24,180 bases of DNA from Acrasis kona (Eukaryota; Heterolobosea; Eutetramitea; Acrasida; Acrasidae): contig JAOPGA020001159.1 of NCBI GenBank assembly GCA_026419775.2, positions 1 to 24,180 of the forward strand, read 5' to 3'. Position numbers and translations under genes: made by a program. Of the stretch, positions 1 through 20,167 are shown in pieces. Position 1 is the stretch's first letter. Each line of letters begins with the position of its first letter. A model generated the notes under the pieces. The model saw only the letters and a list, made by a program, of their open reading frames with translations, was not told the DNA's origin and did no database searches.

Positions 1-908
1 TTTTGACCATCTCTGGAGCGTCTTAAAGCTTGGAGGAATCCATACAGTTCTGCTCTATAGTTGTTGGCAATGCCAGGTATTCTACCGTACTCCACCTTAT
101 CAAAGTTATCACTATTAACTACAGCGTAAGCGGCAATAGTTTTGTCTTTGTTTGCGGAGCCATCTGTGTACCATGTGACAGCATTTCCATCGCTATTTAT
201 GTCATTAGTTGTGGGTCTAACGAGATTGGAGCGAGCATCCTCTAGAAACAGTGCAACTTTACCTTTGTCTGGCGAAACCAAAGTGCGTGCCACTGTCCTG
301 TTGTAGAAATCTTTCAAGTCAACATCTAAGATATCCGAGAGCTGTTGAACATTATCAACATCAGACCAGAAAGGGTCGTTTAGAAGTTGTATATTTTTGG
401 CAGCGAGAAGACGCGAAGTCTCGGAATCTGTCGTGTGCTTGTTACAAGCGGTAAGCACATATGAAGATGCGTTTATCAGCAGTGAGTTGTCAATCATGTG
501 CAGATTAGCGGAGTAAAGCAAATTGCACGAGTTCACCAGATAAGAGTTTACACGATTTGTGTGAGAAATTCGTGTTTTGGACATAGCTGGGTGGACATGC
601 AACCGGTTAGCAAGCTGGATATCAATGAATCGTTGCTTGGTGGTGGCGAAGAGATGGGGATCAGTGTTGGAGTTTAAGGACTTGTGAAGCCCAACAAAAA
701 CTTCAGTTTTGATCAAGGTGGAGGGATGACCAAGCCCATATCCACCTCTATTTGTTGGAGCAAAAAGGAACAGTCTACCCATGTTTTTTCTCCGTATCCC
801 CGCAATGTCAATAAATAAAGAGGATACCAAACTATCTAGCTGCTGGAGTTGTGTGAAATTCCAGCAGAAACAATCTGCAGCGTAAGTTATAGTTGTGCTT
901 TTATTTAT
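1..908 (-). mobile_element. Retroelement fragment: RT C-terminal part plus RNase H domain, truncated
   Basis: The minus strand is free of stops from the codon at 908 (TAA at 911-909) to the left edge, about 302 codons. Near residue 50 is a segment with RRKNMGRLFLF followed by GGYGLGHPSTL, which resembles the end of a retroelement RT just after the thumb. About 200 residues later comes an RNase H start, WYTDGSANKDK (Asp codon 164-162), then NNYRAELYGFLQAL with the second acidic residue (Glu codon 50-48). The remaining RNase H residues lie beyond the edge. No palm motifs (YxDD) are present, so the copy seems 5'-truncated near 908, as is common for LINE-type elements. The RT-then-RNase H order fits I/R1-like non-LTR elements, but an LTR element is not excluded. 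Inference: a dead insertion, though the surviving part has no internal stop. Confidence 0.75.
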
Positions 909-2954: not shown

Positions 2955-3703
2955 GTATTGTAGAGATTTTTCGGAGTACAGAGAGAGGCTTGAGAATCCA
3001 TCAGATAGCATTATGGCTCTCTTGTTTGATCTTGGAGTGTCAACTGTTGGAAGGTATATATGGTCAGGGATACGGGTTTTGCACAAGTTCTTAAAGCCTG
3101 AGATATTTCTTCCACCAAGTGTTCGAAATCATCATTCGGTCAAATTCTATGGAAGAATAATAGCGGTTGTATGCGATGGAGCAGAGCAGGAGTGTAAAAC
3201 ACCATATGATCATAAACAGGAGAAGGTAGTGTACAGTCCAAAAAAGAAGAAGCACATTTACTCTATTAATCAACTCCTCTCCAGAGGGTGACATTTATGG
3301 GATATCAGCATCATACTCTGGTTCTACATCAGATTTAGAAATGTACAAAATGAGAGAGAACAGAATAGATCTGCTGTTAGACGATGATGAAGCGATAGCA
3401 TTTGATGGTGGATTTAATGGAGTGCAAAAGTTATATGCATCTGTTCTTCCATTTGAGCAGCCAAAAGGAGTTCAGATGTTTAAAGAAGAAATTGAGTTTA
3501 ACAAGAAGTTTAAGAGTGTGAGAATCGTCATTGAGAATGTAATCAACCAGGTCAGGAATTTCCACATTTGCAAGAACATGTTTTGTGGAAGTGTTTCAAA
3601 TATTGATATTGTCCAAGAAGAGCATAATATGTGCTGGGTAGTGTGTGCGGGTATTACCAAGTTGTTTAAGACAAGAGCTCAACGTGAGCACAATGCATTA
3701 TAA
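2908..3703 (+). pseudogene. Broken DDE_Tnp_4 (PIF/Harbinger-like) transposase
   Basis: One frame (open from 2908) gives SIMALLFDLGVSTVGRYIWS, a helix-turn-helix-like segment. It continues to GRIIAVVCDGAEQECKTP, with the first catalytic Asp at 3175-3177, and the KKKKHIYSINQLL strand. A frame change occurs at about 3286-3290 (SR then GDIYGISASYSGSTSDLEMY). The second frame then carries AIAFDGGFNGVQKL (second Asp, 3404-3406) and FKSVRIVIENVINQVRNF (Glu codon 3533-3535), ending at TAA 3703. The D-D-E spacing and the FN-x-RI-x-EN signature are those of DDE_Tnp_4 transposases of eukaryotic PIF/Harbinger and ISL2EU elements. The one-base break makes it non-functional unless it is a sequencing error. 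I found no terminal inverted repeats, so the element limits are unknown. Confidence 0.75.
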
Positions 3704-5807: not shown

Positions 5808-6713
5808 TTAATTAGACCCTTTCATCACGGAGCACCAATCTATAGGCGTCAACTCATGCTCTTCTAAATACTTGTTACATTTCGAGAAGATCTTCATATC
5901 GAACCAACCCCCTTGATTAGCACCGAGTGGAGATGGGTGAGTAGTTTGAAGTACGCAATGCTTAGACTCCGTAATCATTTTTAATTTAGCTTTCGCTGGA
6001 CCTCCCCATAACATGAACACCAAATTCTTCTTTTTATTTAAAAGTTTGATTACTTCATCTGTAAAGTTTTCCCAACCCTTCTTTTTGTGAGAGTTTGCTT
6101 TTGTGTCTTCAACAGTCAAAATGGTATTTAGTAGGAGCACCCCCTGCTCTGCCCACGATGTTAGGTTACCATGCTTTGGCGCTTTGAAGCCCTTAATGTC
6201 CGTTGACAATTCTTTATAAATGTTTTGAAGCGATTTTGGGACAACAACTCCTGGCTGAACCGAGAAAGATAAACCATGTGCAAATCCTGCAGTTTGGTAG
6301 GGGTCTTGACCTAAAATCACAACCTTGACTTCATCTAAAGGACACAAATTAAACGCTGCAAAAGTGTCCTCGATTTTAGGGTGGATAATTGTTCCCGCCT
6401 TCTGTTCGCCTTGTAAAAATTTCTTCAAGGATTTGAATGACTCCTTTTTAAATTCCTTCTCGATAGCATCTCTCCAACTTGTTTCCGTAAGATAGTCTTC
6501 TATTTTGTTATAACCACTTGATGGTTTTGCAACACTGCTTGATGATGACTCAGTAGAGTCAGGTTTTCCATCCTCAATAGGTTTTTCAGAAGCTTTCGGT
6601 ATAGAAGGTATGTCGGAAGGTTTCTTTGGCACAAACGGTGCCACGGTTTTCCTCTTTTTCGCTTCAGGTTCTTCACTTTCCTCTAGTGGCCTCTTCTTCA
6701 AGAATTTGTCCAT
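5808..6713 (-). CDS. UNG: Uracil-DNA glycosylase, family 1
   Basis: A 301-residue intronless gene. Family 1 motifs are clear: VVILGQDPYQTAGFAHGLSF with the water-activating Asp at about residue 137; NIYKELSTDI; WAEQGVLLLNTILTV; LVFMLWGGPA; and TTHPSPLGANQGGWF with the catalytic His at about 259. The enzyme removes uracil from DNA to start base excision repair. The N-terminal 70 residues are basic and Ser/Pro-rich (MDKFLKKRPLEES, EAKKRKTVAP), fitting a nuclear localisation signal and a disordered, possibly partner-binding tail. The residue after DPY is Gln rather than the usual His, and HPSPLS is HPSPLG. The ATG at 6713 is the first in frame. Its end is close to the start of the Ras gene (about 120 bp), and both are transcribed leftward. 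Confidence 0.96.
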   Translation of the reverse strand: MDKFLKKRPLEESEEPEAKKRKTVAPFVPKKPSDIPSIPKASEKPIEDGKPDSTESSSSSVAKPSSGYNKIEDYLTETSWRDAIEKEFKKESFKSLKKFLQGEQKAGTIIHPKIEDTFAAFNLCPLDEVKVVILGQDPYQTAGFAHGLSFSVQPGVVVPKSLQNIYKELSTDIKGFKAPKHGNLTSWAEQGVLLLNTILTVEDTKANSHKKKGWENFTDEVIKLLNKKKNLVFMLWGGPAKAKLKMITESKHCVLQTTHPSPLGANQGGWFDMKIFSKCNKYLEEHELTPIDWCSVMKGSN

Positions 6714-6839
6714 TTTTCTTGTTTTCTTTTGAACTTTCTTACAATTTCTTCATGACCCGGTCAACATCAACTTTTCAAAGTTTGTTGGAGTTGACTCGCT
6801 TACAAAAATTGGAAACGATAAATAACCAAATATATAACT

Positions 6840-9572: not shown

Positions 9573-9653
9573 GCATTGATGGTTTAGTGGTAGAATTGGA
9601 CGTTGCCATCGTCTAGACCGGGGTTCGATTACCAGAAATTCCCCGTCAATGCA
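9573..9653 (+). tRNA. tRNA-Gly(GCC) with a 10-nt insertion in the T-loop
   Basis: The acceptor stem GCATTGA pairs with TCAATGC (9646-9652), and the discriminator is A9653. The D-arm has AGTGGTAGAAT (A box). The anticodon stem GGACG/CGTCT flanks TTGCCAT with anticodon GCC at 9605-9607. The T stem is CGGGG (9619-9623) with CCCCG (9641-9645). Between them lies the standard seven-base T-loop TTCGATT (9624-9630) plus ten extra bases, accagaaatt (9631-9640). Without these ten bases the gene is a perfectly ordinary 71-nt eukaryotic tRNA-Gly. The insertion follows directly after the B-box core GGTTCGATT and changes its last two bases. A T5 Pol III terminator follows at 9654-9658. The gene may be functional with an ectopic intron, or inactivated. 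Confidence 0.9.
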
Positions 9654-9830
9654 TTTTTAACTTGAAAAACACATTCTCAAAGTCGGCTTCAGTAACCAGT
9701 ACACGCTCATTGATAGGTTCGTAATCTTCAGGTTAATCAGGATCATCATCCCAATTATAATCTGGTTCTTTGTGATCTGTTATTACACGCTCACGGTCGA
9801 CAAGTGAGTTATAAATTTCTCTTCTTTCTC
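9649..9830 (-). pseudogene. Coding-like relic abutting tRNA-Gly
   Basis: The minus strand reads RERREIYNSLVDRERVITD, HKEPDYNWDDDPD, then one TAA (9735-9733), then PEDYEPINERVLVTEADFEN and VFFKLKMH ending in a TGA inside the tRNA 3' end. The acidic composition looks like real protein, but I recognise no family. It may be a transposon or gene remnant next to the tRNA. Confidence 0.35.
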
Positions 9831-11639: not shown

Positions 11640-12523
11640 GTGCGGAGTGAGTGCAACGAACGACGCACGAATGAGGAATTGTCACCCACGAGGGCGAGTG
11701 ATTAGGAAATTCCTGTCTCTTTATGTCAACATAATTAATAAAGATGTTACTTATTTTATTCTCTGTCCTAATATGTTTTGTTGTATGCCATTGCAACAAA
11801 GGGCATTTCTATATAGTACTGTGGTAAAAATTGAGGAAATGACTGATCACACTCATGAGAAGTATCTCGCAGGACTGGTGTACATTCCACCAAGTGAGCA
11901 GGATAAGAAAGCTGAAGTATTGGCTAAAACTTTTCAAGAAATGGTTAGTATTCGTGGACACTCACAACCAGCTGTATTACCAAACTTGCAGCTGCAGTTT
12001 GACAATGCACCACACCATATAGTTAACCCAGCAAACTTACAAGGAGAAGTTACCAGAAGATGTACAATGGGAGATCACTCACGGTAGAGTATGCGATCAA
12101 AGAATTAGAAAGAACAAAGCCGGGGCTGTTATTGTTGTGAGGCATGGTATCGATAGGTATACTTCACACTCTGGCCGTAGAACAATGGCAACATTCATGG
12201 CTGAGATGGGATTCTGTGCAGCCGAAATTCAATCGATGTTGCGACACATGAACCAATCCACATCGCAGGAATACATCGACTCATCTGATCGTGTGAGAAA
12301 GAGCACGTCAAAAAAATTATCAAATGCGATTAGCATCATTGACAGAAACAACGTCGAAAGTGAAGCTGATGTGACCAAGGATAATGATGTTGTTATCGAT
12401 GATGAAGTGAAGGCAGTGGTAGGTCAAGAAAACAAGAAGAACTGGAATCTGGTATTCAATAATTGTAATGTCACATTTCACTAATAAAGTATGAGGGATA
12501 GTTTTTGTTCCCCACAGGTGTGT
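11606..12523 (+). mobile_element. Relic element with tyrosine-recombinase domain
   Basis: Its proposed limits rest on gtggggaacaa (11619-11629), repeated in inverse as ttgttccccac near 12508-12518. An 11-bp inverted repeat, tcactccgcac (11606-11616) with gtgcggagtga (11640-11650), lies at the left end. The GC content of 11640-11700 differs from that of its surroundings. Inside are a minus-one-frame ORF of unknown content (from about 11793, with HEKYLAGLVYIPPSEQDKK) and the recombinase domain. Terminal repeats this short could arise by chance, so the boundaries are tentative. Confidence 0.45.
12023..12484 (+). pseudogene. Tyrosine recombinase C-terminal domain (truncated)
   Basis: One frame is open from 12023 and ends at a TAA at 12482-12484. 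It contains KLPEDVQWEITHGRV, then YTSHSGRRTMATFMAEMG, AAEIQSMLRHMNQSTSQEYI and DSSDRVRKSTSKK. H-x-x-R, the following His (LRHMN) and a Tyr ten residues later form the box II of tyrosine recombinases (R-H-x-x-R-H-Y family), as in Crypton, DIRS and Ngaro elements. The first catalytic Arg region is missing or lies in another frame upstream, because the preceding ORF (to 12087) is out of frame. It is therefore a broken copy. There is no RT, so assignment to Crypton rather than DIRS is open. Confidence 0.7.
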
Positions 12524-17321: not shown

Positions 17322-19847
17322 TTATCCCTTCTTTGTGCTCAAAATGAGATTGATTGGAATGGAACCAGCTGAGGCAAACTCCAAACTTCCAAAAGTACTC
17401 AACACTTGATCAGAGTAATTAAAAACAATCCACTTCCAGTACGTGCTCAAGTTGTTCTGCCTGGACTGTCTCATCTCGCTTCCTCTGCTGCAGAACATGG
17501 CGACCAATTTGTCAAATTCTTCAGTACGAGGAGGTTCAACATCAGGTCTTGTGGTACCCACTAGGAAATTGAACTTGTATGTCCAGGACCTTTCCGCCTC
17601 CTCCTCAGCTGTCCATGAAATCATATTTCGGTCGGAGCTGCCTCCAGTCTTTGCTTTAATCTCATTAACAAGCATGCGGCGTTTATGAACAGGGCTCCAA
17701 TCCTTTGGCACAGATGACATTATCAAGTAATAGTCCTGACCCATGTTATGAGTGCGAATAAATGGTTCGATTAGCGCATGAGTAAGTCCCAATCCACCTG
17801 CAGTAACTGGCCAATACACCCACGCCTCCATCACATCGACATTCTCTGATTTTTCAAAGAATTTCTCCTTGATGGCTCTTATAAAGTACTCTAGGGAACT
17901 TTCGTTGCCAAAGCGTGCGTGAATGTCCTCGTAAGCGTTCAATACTGATTGCTTATAGTATGGATCATTAATGCCAGCTCCCTTACCAACATACATGTCC
18001 AATAACTTCAACTGACTGTTATAAACATTCACTTGCTTCATTAACGACGAACCAGATTTGACTTTTTCAATCATGCTCTTTTTAAATTCATCGAACACAA
18101 CTGGATTCACCCTAAAATAACCATCTTTGTGTAACTTCAAGAACCCCCAATTGACATCATTGTCCGGTAAGTTTTTCAAATCCTTATCATTAATATTAGG
18201 TTTTGGAAGTGGATCCTGGAGTTGGTTCTTTTTACTTCTATTGTTGAACAAGGTAAAGTAAACATCAGATGTATGACGAGGAAATTCTACTATACAGTAG
18301 CCAGATTTTTTGCGATTCATTTTCATCCCAAGCGAAGATAGAGTGGATGAGTATAGCTCAAAGGCTTGATAAATCACTTTAGAAGATTTGGATAGCATGT
18401 AAGTATCGTCACAACATCTAAACAGCTCTAAAGAATCGTTTTCCTTCACACTCGACAAGTTAGATAACTTGTTCATTTGATAATCCAAAACAAACATGAC
18501 GCATTCACAAAAGACATCGCTCAGTGCGTATCGCAGGGGCGTTCCCTTTGTAACAACGCCTTCGCGTCCATTATGTTTTATTTTTACCCTCAGGAACTTT
18601 TCAAAGAAGTTCAGATAAGCACCATAACCAAATGCATCCATGACCGCAAGGATGGTGGAGTGTGGCAAGCTGTTACTAAAGTCGTGAATGTCGGTGAACA
18701 ACACTACCATACCCTCCGTGGGACTCTTTGCTCTAGCATGTCCCAAATGACTACTAACGCCTTCCAGAACATCAGTCTTTGCCATGACGTCGATATCATT
18801 AGAGTTCTCAGAGGCCTCTTCTGATGCACTCTCCTCTTCTCTCTCTGTTCTCTGATACATGTCGGTTTCGACCTCACAAGTACTGTCTGGTAATAGGGTT
18901 AAGAATTTACCAGAGGTAGCTCTGCGGTCGAGACTCGTATTTATACATTTGTTGGTGATGAGATTGTTCAGATTCGTCTTTATGTCAACACCAATACGTG
19001 TTCCAATGATTTGCAAAAACAAGATGTCCATGTACTCAGCAGTGACAAAGTACCTCACCTTTCCATTCGAGAATTTTTCGAAATGGAACGTTGGCGGAGC
19101 GTCGCCATCTAGTTTCCAGTCCCAATTGTTAATGTCTTGGAGTTTGATGCTCAATAGATCTGATAATTCTCCAATGGTCACGTCGTCGTCGCACAAAGTT
19201 TTTAACTCTTGCGAAGTGGCGGCGTTGGTAATGAGGCCCTTGGTGATAATGTTCTTGATGGCGGCCTCGGTCTCTTGTTTGGATACCTTGCGTAAATGAT
19301 CGGTGTGGGTAGCGGGATGTGATAATTCATCGTCGGGGAATATTTTGTTGATGGCGGTTTTGGTGCTTTCTTTGTAACTCTTTTTCACTTTTGCAAACGC
19401 TCCGTCGATGAGCTCGGTCAACTTGGAGTTGCTTCCCTTGACAAGTTTGTCGTTTGGTACGTCAACCCATGAGCTCTCTTCAGTTGTGTTCTTTAACCAC
19501 TCTTCCAGGACACTGCAAAACAACTTTGTTTGGAATTGTCTTCTTCTACCGTTCTTTATTTCGTTTCTTAACTTTGTGGTCCATCTGGATAGTCCATCAT
19601 CACCGTAAAAAGATGGCAATTTCATTTGACGCTCAACGTGATCTATTTCACGAAAGTGTTTGTGGTGGTCCTTTACTTTCTTGATTCCTTCATGGAGTAC
19701 GCCAAGTTCGTTTGCTTTAGTACTTTGCTTATCAGCGTTTAACAGCACATCATCGTAATGTTTTTCCAAGAATGCCCTTTGTTTTTTAATTTCTTTTAAC
19801 TTTGCATCTGTTGCTTTTGAGAGCACTTGTTGTGATATTGTTTTCAT
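17322..19847 (-). CDS. rvt: Cellular reverse transcriptase of the rvt family
   Basis: An 841-residue uninterrupted ORF from the ATG at 19847. Residues 1-75 are charged and helical, likely coiled coil. The RT core shows motif A VVLFTDIHDFSNSLPHSTIL (catalytic Asp about 386), motif B' VVTKGTPLRYALSDVFCE (435-450), motif C LFRCCDDTYML (Asp pair 480-481), motif D GMKMNRKKSG (507-516), then DVNWGFLKLHKDGYFRV (564-580) and WPVTAGGLGL (679-688). I match these to the fungal rvt pattern (S/LPHxTI, RGTPxxHALSD, RLHDDxWF, GDVxWGFLxLD) from memory. Family knowledge: rvt genes are single-copy, non-mobile RT genes described from fungi, some protists, plants, rotifers and a few bacteria, with untemplated and NTP-polymerising activity reported. 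An acidic Ser/Glu insertion (about 328-355) sits within the fingers region. There is no endonuclease, integrase or RNase H, and no flanking repeats, so it is not a retroelement. Confidence 0.9.
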   Translation of the reverse strand: MKTISQQVLSKATDAKLKEIKKQRAFLEKHYDDVLLNADKQSTKANELGVLHEGIKKVKDHHKHFREIDHVERQMKLPSFYGDDGLSRWTTKLRNEIKNGRRRQFQTKLFCSVLEEWLKNTTEESSWVDVPNDKLVKGSNSKLTELIDGAFAKVKKSYKESTKTAINKIFPDDELSHPATHTDHLRKVSKQETEAAIKNIITKGLITNAATSQELKTLCDDDVTIGELSDLLSIKLQDINNWDWKLDGDAPPTFHFEKFSNGKVRYFVTAEYMDILFLQIIGTRIGVDIKTNLNNLITNKCINTSLDRRATSGKFLTLLPDSTCEVETDMYQRTEREEESASEEASENSNDIDVMAKTDVLEGVSSHLGHARAKSPTEGMVVLFTDIHDFSNSLPHSTILAVMDAFGYGAYLNFFEKFLRVKIKHNGREGVVTKGTPLRYALSDVFCECVMFVLDYQMNKLSNLSSVKENDSLELFRCCDDTYMLSKSSKVIYQAFELYSSTLSSLGMKMNRKKSGYCIVEFPRHTSDVYFTLFNNRSKKNQLQDPLPKPNINDKDLKNLPDNDVNWGFLKLHKDGYFRVNPVVFDEFKKSMIEKVKSGSSLMKQVNVYNSQLKLLDMYVGKGAGINDPYYKQSVLNAYEDIHARFGNESSLEYFIRAIKEKFFEKSENVDVMEAWVYWPVTAGGLGLTHALIEPFIRTHNMGQDYYLIMSSVPKDWSPVHKRRMLVNEIKAKTGGSSDRNMISWTAEEEAERSWTYKFNFLVGTTRPDVEPPRTEEFDKLVAMFCSRGSEMRQSRQNNLSTYWKWIVFNYSDQVLSTFGSLEFASAGSIPINLILSTKKG

Positions 19848-19895
19848 TTTTTGTTGTTGGGATAATAGTGTTTACACCAAATCTTTTATATAGAT

Positions 19896-20010: not shown

Positions 20011-20093
20011 GCCCGTCTAGCTCAGAGTAGAGTATTCGGTAGAGCGCAAGACTCTTAATCTTGTGGTCGAGGGTTCGAGCCCCTCGGTGGGCG
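20011..20093 (+). tRNA. tRNA-Lys(CTT) with a 10-nt insertion in the D-loop
   Basis: The acceptor GCCCGTC pairs with GGTGGGC (20086-20092), and the discriminator is G20093. The anticodon arm CAAGA CTCTTAA TCTTG carries anticodon CTT. The T-arm is GAGGG TTCGAGC CCCTC, with a perfect B box (GGTTCGAGCCC). The D stem GCTC (20020-20023) and GAGC (20042-20045) is present, but the loop AG-TCGGTA is split by ten extra bases, agtagagtat (20026-20035). Without them the gene is the standard 73-nt eukaryotic tRNA-Lys. The extra bases duplicate the local word gtagag, so a slippage duplication is possible. The insertion lies within the A box, widening it. A T5 terminator follows at 20099-20103. It is divergent from rvt. 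Confidence 0.9.
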
Positions 20094-20167
20094 AAATATT
20101 TTTAAGTTGCTGACCGATAAACAAGAAAAGTAAAACTAGAACATTGAGTAGCATAAAATTTATTTTG

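Follow-up and report, generated by a model that had tools for sequence, protein, structure and literature searches.

Two tRNA genes lie on the forward strand of the window, i.e. the whole stretch of 24,180 nt of contig JAOPGA020001159.1 of Acrasis kona that was analysed. One encodes tRNA-Gly(GCC) and the other tRNA-Lys(CTT), and a run of T residues follows each of them (Table 1). The first-pass annotation had described the glycine gene as intact in its stems but enlarged by ten bases in the T-loop, and the lysine gene as carrying ten extra bases in the D-loop; both descriptions are borne out. The glycine insert splits the end of the B box. From the sequence alone its placement slides by one T: it had been put at 9631-9640, whereas the splice rule described below places the same ten T-loop bases one position upstream, and we use the latter borders. 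Canonical eukaryotic introns sit between tRNA positions 37 and 38, and the inserts of the window and the other ectopic inserts of Acrasis lie elsewhere. ARAGORN did not call the glycine gene in the window and put the start of the lysine gene at 20020; the Rfam tRNA model matched the lysine gene only, over model positions 8-63 of 71. Since one program missed the glycine gene and the other matched neither gene fully, tRNA counts obtained with default models for such genomes may be wrong.

Table 1 Features of the two interrupted tRNA genes of the window; introns, helices, bulges and cuts are predictions (BHB, bulge-helix-bulge).
Feature	Position	Strand	Basis or remark
tRNA-Gly(GCC) gene including discriminator base, T-loop interrupted	9573..9653	+	stems intact
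Putative ectopic intron of Gly, 10 nt, T-loop, between tRNA positions 59/60	9630..9639	+	comparison of 27 genomic places; borders from BHB rule
Gly central BHB helix, 5' strand TTCG, tRNA 54-57	9624..9627	+	3/4 pairs form in window copy
Gly 5' bulge, predicted cut after 9629	9628-9630	+	BHB rule
Gly central BHB helix, 3' strand AGAA, inside putative intron	9634..9637	+	BHB rule and minimum-energy fold
Gly 3' bulge, predicted cut after 9639	9638-9640	+	BHB rule
T-run, putative pol III terminator of Gly gene	9654..9658	+	sequence
tRNA-Lys(CTT) gene, D-loop interrupted	20011..20093	+	sequence, ARAGORN, Rfam, genomic copies
Putative ectopic intron of Lys, 10 nt, D-loop, about 16/17	20026..20035	+	copies: 28/28 parsed Lys(CTT) genes interrupted there
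Lys central BHB helix, 5' strand GCTC, doubles as D-stem 5' strand	20020..20023	+	BHB rule
Lys central BHB helix, 3' strand GAGT, inside putative intron	20030..20033	+	BHB rule
Lys 3' bulge, predicted cut after 20035	20034-20036	+	BHB rule
T-run, putative pol III terminator of Lys gene	20099..20103	+	sequence

The remainder of the window holds features of diverse kinds. An open frame of 849 aa at 17325-19871 (-), whose start lies some 140 nt away from the tRNA-Lys gene, matches RVT_1 with 29.0 bits, just below the cut-off of 29.6, and is possibly a tRNA-associated retroelement. Fragments with RNase H, DDE_Tnp_4 transposase and phage-integrase-type recombinase domains were detected at 3-908 (-), 3230-3703 (+) and 12023-12484 (+). 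A uracil-DNA glycosylase gene at 5811-6749 (-) is a candidate for horizontal transfer: among the matches listed, its named relatives (identity about 55-58%) are mostly Bacteroidota such as Pedobacter and Mucilaginibacter, but also include one EukProt entry, code CFRG, which we take to be Creolimax. The best named relatives of a mitochondrial carrier encoded in the window come from Naegleria gruberi (57%) and Willaertia magna (51%).

A similarity search of the assembly (37,352,617 bases, 1021 contigs) with the glycine gene gave 27 places, and all 27 candidates were scored. In 26 of them the T-loop is interrupted. The first-pass annotation had named uninterrupted tRNA-Gly(GCC) genes as evidence against introns. 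None turned up in the 37.35-Mb assembly: the sole copy with a normal T-loop, L057 (C492:99819-99902), has inserts in the D-loop (13 nt) and in the anticodon loop (10 nt). After removal of these two inserts L057 yields exactly the tRNA predicted from 19 T-loop genes with unchanged exons, so that one product results from 20/20 parsed genes. The other seven T-loop copies show exon changes, a single T-loop base in L047 and other changes in L051-L056; some of these are probably pseudogenes. Among the 20 T-loop copies with a regular body (L047 included) 20 different inserts are present, and their 60-nt flanks share little similarity (upstream mean identity 0.32, maximum 0.47; downstream mean 0.34, maximum 0.58). 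TTTT occurs within 20 nt downstream in all 20 T-loop genes examined. Constant exons next to 20 distinct inserts and such dissimilar flanks suggest that selection has held the exon and the splice signal and that the middle of the insert has drifted. The similarity search misses some partial copies, and a pattern search added two matches. One of them, L103 (C198), is a 3' tRNA-Gly fragment without a 5' half that is fused to unrelated sequence and carries the same T-loop insert as L045; the other, on C341, has the same sequence as L103 within the match itself, flank excluded.

The situation is similar for tRNA-Lys(CTT). No insert-free gene of this kind was present among 40 of 41 candidates that were scored or among 73 matches to a D-loop pattern, and the 28/28 genes that could be parsed are all interrupted in the D-loop. 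The first-pass annotation had stressed that two of two tRNA genes carried insertions of the same length. The interruption has turned out to be systematic in both families, but the equal length carries no meaning: since glycine T-loop inserts vary from 10 to 13 nt and lysine (CTT) inserts from 10 to 14 nt among parsed copies, the agreement within the window is coincidental.

Ectopic inserts of 10-28 nt were found in genes of 16 anticodon families, at the sites D16/17, D17/18, D20/21 and T59/60, and form 19 site families in the genome; some anticodon families also hold insert-free copies. Three patterns were used, one for interrupted T-loops (78 matches versus 35 for the reversed pattern), one for D-loops of open length (73 versus 4 reversed; 16 of the 73 are insert-free D-loops by manual count) and one for the B box (199 versus 30 reversed). 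Sixty B-box matches were read, from the first-listed places of the 199, and 120 short stretches overall. Parsed genes with and without insert number 20/0 for Gly-GCC, 28/0 for Lys-CTT, 2/0 for Lys-TTT, 7/0 for Ala-TGC, 14/0 for Glu-CTC, 8/0 for Tyr-GTA, 8/0 for Ser-GCT, 4/0 for Val-AAC, 7/1 for Pro-TGG, 2/4 for Leu-TAG, 3/2 for Arg-TCT, 4/4 for Trp-CCA, 2/4 for Asp-GTC, 4/1 for Gly-TCC, 4/3 for Glu-TTC and 3/2 for Gln-TTG, ratios that are biased because the genes were picked by pattern and similarity. Unparsed entries comprise six Gly, three Lys-CTT and 28 in the Lys-TTT row, whose start and end pattern is common with Lys-CTT. The searches were near-complete for Gly and Lys; for Tyr, Ala, Glu, Ser and others the best 40 of 144 candidates were scored and the B-box matches were read in part, so that Ala, Glu-CTC, Ser-GCT and Val genes without inserts may exist. 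An assembly error as the cause of the inserts was rejected on the basis of the 120 parsed genes that carry them.

Several genes are interrupted more than once. All eight parsed Tyr genes have inserts in the D-loop and the anticodon loop, and two add a T-loop insert, giving three per gene; the B-box stretches yielded further Tyr genes without a T-loop insert. Eleven of the 14 parsed Glu-CTC genes have D- and T-loop inserts and three a D-loop insert alone. Four Glu-CTC copies (L097, L098, L100, L183) have their 5' acceptor strand replaced by seemingly antisense tRNA sequence, apparently a repeated chimera. An Ile(AAT)-like tRNA, L114 (C569), has a possible D-loop insert outside the defined site families. 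Canonical 37/38 introns are also present in the genome, namely in Tyr, Val, L057 and some Gln genes (two of the three Gln-TTG inserts). Insert-free genes include, with anticodons read by eye, Thr, two kinds of Met, Asn, His, Ser-TGA, Arg-TCG, Gly-CCC and Pro-CGG; insert-free Asp genes are likewise present, and four that were read belong to fifteen places with a common tRNA score of 59 bits. With human Ala, Val, Ile and Phe seeds none of the corresponding Acrasis genes was detected; of the 12 matches obtained, 11 belonged to a Leu seed and one was a known Asn gene. TTTT lies within 20 nt downstream of 39/39 genes with T-loop inserts, 79/81 with other inserts and 21/21 without insert. An upstream element that distinguishes T-loop-insert genes was not found: TATA at -40 to -15 occurs in 11/28 genes with T-loop inserts, 21/37 with other inserts and 7/16 without.

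The inserts share a bulge-helix-bulge geometry, a rule that was spotted by eye first and tested afterwards. Four helix bases followed by two bulge bases make up the end of the 5' exon. At the end of the insert stand four bases complementary to these helix bases and again two bulge bases, and the second bulge is completed by the base with which the 3' exon begins. A helix of up to four exon:insert pairs is thereby flanked by two 3-nt bulges, and both predicted cuts fall between bulge bases 2 and 3; such a bulge-helix-bulge is the substrate on which tRNA-splicing endonuclease acts. At T59/60 the T-stem serves as outer helix and TTCG faces mostly NGRA, with a few TGAG, CGAG and CGGT (in Gly mostly NGAA). 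The helices at D16/17 are GCTC:GAGY in Lys and Trp (GAGA in one Lys-TTT copy), GTCT:RGAY in Pro and GCCG:CGGT in Leu; at D17/18 TCAG:CTGA in Arg; and at D20/21 AGTG:CACT in Asp and Gly-TCC, GTTG:CAAY in Tyr, GTTG:TAAT in Val and GTGG:CCAT or TCAC in Ser and Glu-CTC, with three pairs in Glu-TTC and Gln. Most helix changes stay paired through wobble (e.g. GAGT/GAGC, AGAT/AGAC/GGAT, CCAT/TCAC), and in Gly the innermost pair is missing in 8/19. The outer helix of a full BHB, present at T59/60, is absent at D16/17. As the insert there pairs with a strand of the D-stem, D-stem and splice helix are mutually exclusive. A three-pair helix at D16/17 with the cut two bases further on was rejected, since it gave a product one base longer than the insert-free Trp, Pro and Leu paralogues (by eye); the four-pair register reproduces these paralogues.

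At least three of four pairs are formed by 115/115 distinct ectopic inserts (L057 included), and A is the first base of the 3' bulge in 108 of them. This set excludes one Ala insert with an N and the seven exon-changed Gly copies, which reach at least three pairs in 7/7 when scored apart, and includes the T-loop inserts of the four Glu copies with replaced 5' end. In families without insert-free paralogues the cuts were set by the rule itself, so that 115/115 is partly circular and the anchored subset, in which insert-free paralogues set the borders apart from sliding ambiguity, is the more independent test. Of these 29 distinct inserts (28 ectopic and one canonical Gln insert) all have at least three pairs and 24 have four, whereas shuffled inserts reach three in a mean of 6.2/29 cases (maximum 17 in 2000 trials) and shifted registers in at most 6/29 or 5/19. 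The mean number of pairs is 3.83; the means for eight shifted registers lie at 1.0-1.7, and shuffles average 1.73 with a maximum of 2.41. Over all families 117/123 inserts fit (shuffles: mean 29.7, maximum 45), and the six exceptions are Tyr and Val inserts at the canonical 37/38 site; canonical anticodon-loop inserts have three pairs in only 3/9, or 4/10 with L057. With one insert drawn per site family 19/19 fit, versus 12 at most in shuffles. If the shuffles may choose the best of three registers they reach a mean of 11.4 and a maximum of 18/19 (5000 shuffles), and this strictest register test is therefore clear yet less extreme. When 20 Gly T-arms were folded, 17 showed the T-stem, a 3-nt bulge and three or more pairs of the helix, among them the window copy with three pairs; another pairing is favoured by the minimum-energy fold in the remaining three, and shuffled inserts form the expected helix in 41/1000.

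Removal of the predicted introns restores regular tRNAs in silico. With flanks trimmed, ARAGORN assigned the right anticodon to 5/120 insert-bearing genes before removal and to 120/120 afterwards; for the Gly(GCC) genes these figures are 0/20 and 20/20. In the eight families of mixed composition (Trp, Asp, Gly(UCC), Glu(UUC), Gln, Pro, Leu, Arg) 20/29 predicted products are identical to an insert-free copy with that anticodon; the other nine are equal in length and differ by 1-3 bases distant from the insert site. Genome-wide copies, the common BHB geometry, identical predicted products and insert-free paralogues of other tRNAs support the earlier suggestion of small ectopic tRNA introns. The new class of intron that had also been suggested is unnecessary, since the inserts match the known BHB type. 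The additional bases are almost certainly bulge-helix-bulge introns at ectopic sites of the tRNA, which would be excised from the precursor.

That the inserts stay in place, and that mature Acrasis tRNAs simply have enlarged D- and T-loops, would agree with the shortness of the inserts and the intact stems. Such tRNAs would, however, have inserts that pair with conserved D-loop, T-loop or D-stem residues in one and the same 3-4-3 register, insert-free counterparts in each of the eight mixed families, and Gly genes that are identical apart from differently placed inserts; we regard this as very unlikely. It is also extremely unlikely that the insert-bearing genes are pseudogenes or SINEs and that functional tRNAs derive from intact genes missed by the assembly or the searches. 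Exon changes in 7/26 Gly T-loop copies, the truncated Gly fragment and the four chimeric Glu copies point in this direction, as does the size of the assembly in comparison to the 44.02 Mb given in the genome paper (PMC11589745); moreover, similarity searches score the best candidates only. Instead of decayed bodies and intact copies elsewhere, however, we found twenty Gly genes (19 T-loop genes and L057) without any exon change, T-loop genes with unrelated flanks and T-runs, and, among the scored candidates, neither Gly(GCC) nor Lys(CTT) genes free of inserts; the cell requires both tRNAs. A review expects, as a rule, a pseudogene where one gene among many synonymous ones is interrupted (PMC4090602); here 27/27 Gly places are.

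Since some families hold insert-bearing as well as insert-free copies, gain or loss of the inserts has taken place, and fragments resembling reverse transcriptase and transposase lie within the window. Both observations would suit mobile-element footprints or a targeted insertion process that placed random 10-nt stretches in tRNA loops. But the inserts are not random: the helix residues and, in the great majority, the A of the 3' bulge are kept and the rest is variable. An insertion process may describe the origin of the inserts rather than their present role; taken as the whole explanation, it conflicts with the BHB constraint that the inserts obey, and we consider it barely credible.

The genome encodes a tRNA-splicing endonuclease and RNA ligases, candidates for the two steps of intron removal. 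A search with PF01974 revealed two genes, L088 matching human Sen34 and L089 matching Sen2. In both, Tyr, His and Lys residues align with the human chains, and we take these to be the catalytic residues. The Sen2 gene (on C492) is 100% identical over 93% of the query to 'tRNA-splicing endonuclease subunit [Acrasis kona]'. PF12928 detected one Sen54 candidate (35 bits, cut-off 24). RtcB is complete on C620; a second RtcB, on C179, is split into two parts, and two in-frame stops in one of them perhaps represent an intron. The RNA_lig_T4_1 domain is present at six places (C36, C760, C376, C544, C100, C849), many for one genome.

We propose that in the Gly precursor the T-stem would form the outer helix and the last part of the insert would base-pair with TTCG (54-57), so that either strand keeps an unpaired bulge of 3 nt. 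Cleavage by a Sen2/Sen34 endonuclease between the second and third nucleotide of both bulges, as in archaeal BHB substrates, would be followed by joining of the exons to a canonical TTCGATT T-loop, through RtcB or a ligase of the Trl1 type. The Lys precursor would be processed likewise with its insert paired to the 5' strand of the D-stem (GCTC:GAGT), and the same scheme could hold for all four ectopic sites across the 16 anticodon families. We infer transcription, cleavage, ligation, their timing and the acting enzyme from the genome sequence. Because the D16/17 inserts of Lys and Trp mimic the 3' strand of the D-stem, their excision would precede D-stem formation. Early removal is also suggested for the T-arm introns by analogy to Cyanidioschyzon merolae, where a T-arm intron blocks formation of pseudouridine 55 by Pus4 (PMC9602550). 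Two further papers state that eukaryotic endonucleases can cleave archaeal-type sites (PMC4090602) and that the yeast enzyme cuts strictly at 37/38 within a tRNA (PMC4033280), which implies that either the Acrasis enzyme lacks such a ruler or a strong BHB is enough. The canonical 37/38 introns of Acrasis are presumably cut by the same enzyme as the ectopic ones.

Ectopic BHB introns as such are described for archaea, C. merolae and nucleomorphs (PMC4090602, PMC3978253, PMC9602550). The archaeal non-canonical introns have sites such as 20/21 and 59/60 as well as the 4-bp helix and two 3-nt bulges in common with those of Acrasis (PMC4090602). They are abundant in Crenarchaeota and Nanoarchaeota; Acrasis differs by its eukaryotic Sen2, Sen34 and Sen54-like subunits, T-run terminators and many paralogues per tRNA. 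C. merolae belongs to a lineage unrelated to Heterolobosea and also has permuted tRNA genes, whereas in Acrasis the introns occur in multi-copy families, with an insert of its own in each Gly copy and several families of mixed composition. The nucleomorph of Guillardia theta resembles Acrasis in having non-canonical introns, of 3-24 nt, in the D and T arms among other places, and their excision is reported to have been shown by RT-PCR (PMC4090602). It is, however, a reduced relict nucleus in which many introns lack a defined BHB (PMC3978253), in contrast to the regular register in Acrasis. No report of tRNA introns in Heterolobosea, Naegleria or Acrasis was found in the accessible parts of the open-licence PMC literature searched, which included PMC8450103, PMC11589745 and PMC12482156; the main text of the A. 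kona genome paper has 'tRNA' twice, in one passage on tRNA synthetases (PMC11589745). The kind of intron is thus known, while the lineage, the scale and the gene families with and without intron look new. As far as we have seen in that literature, the same applies to the regular Gly copies, no two of which share an insert, and to a gene, L057, that has introns at other sites and the same predicted product.

Ectopic tRNA introns of eukaryotes have been regarded as uncommon curiosities found in red algae and in relict nuclei of algal origin (PMC4090602). Ectopic introns as the rule in essential tRNAs of a free-living discobid would extend BHB cutting by a eukaryotic endonuclease to a distant branch. 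Twenty natural variants of one Gly intron, together with several families of mixed composition, make intron gain and loss and the substrate rules of the enzyme testable, and the interrupted B box raises the question of how TFIIIC reads it. We tentatively put forward a broader idea, which is possible but doubtful, that the Acrasis endonuclease is a free BHB cutter without a 37/38 ruler, that tRNA introns are continually gained, lost and relocated, and that essential tRNA pools depend on splicing. If so, copies of one isoacceptor with introns at different sites (in Gly, L057 compared to the other 26) or with none would converge on one tRNA; the pools of Gly-GCC and Lys, and perhaps those of Ala-UGC, Glu-CUC, Tyr, Ser-GCU and Val, would need splicing; and pol III would have to tolerate a B box split by 10-17 nt in the T-loop cases. 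Families of mixed composition could then tie tRNA supply to splicing capacity, for example during starvation or aggregation.
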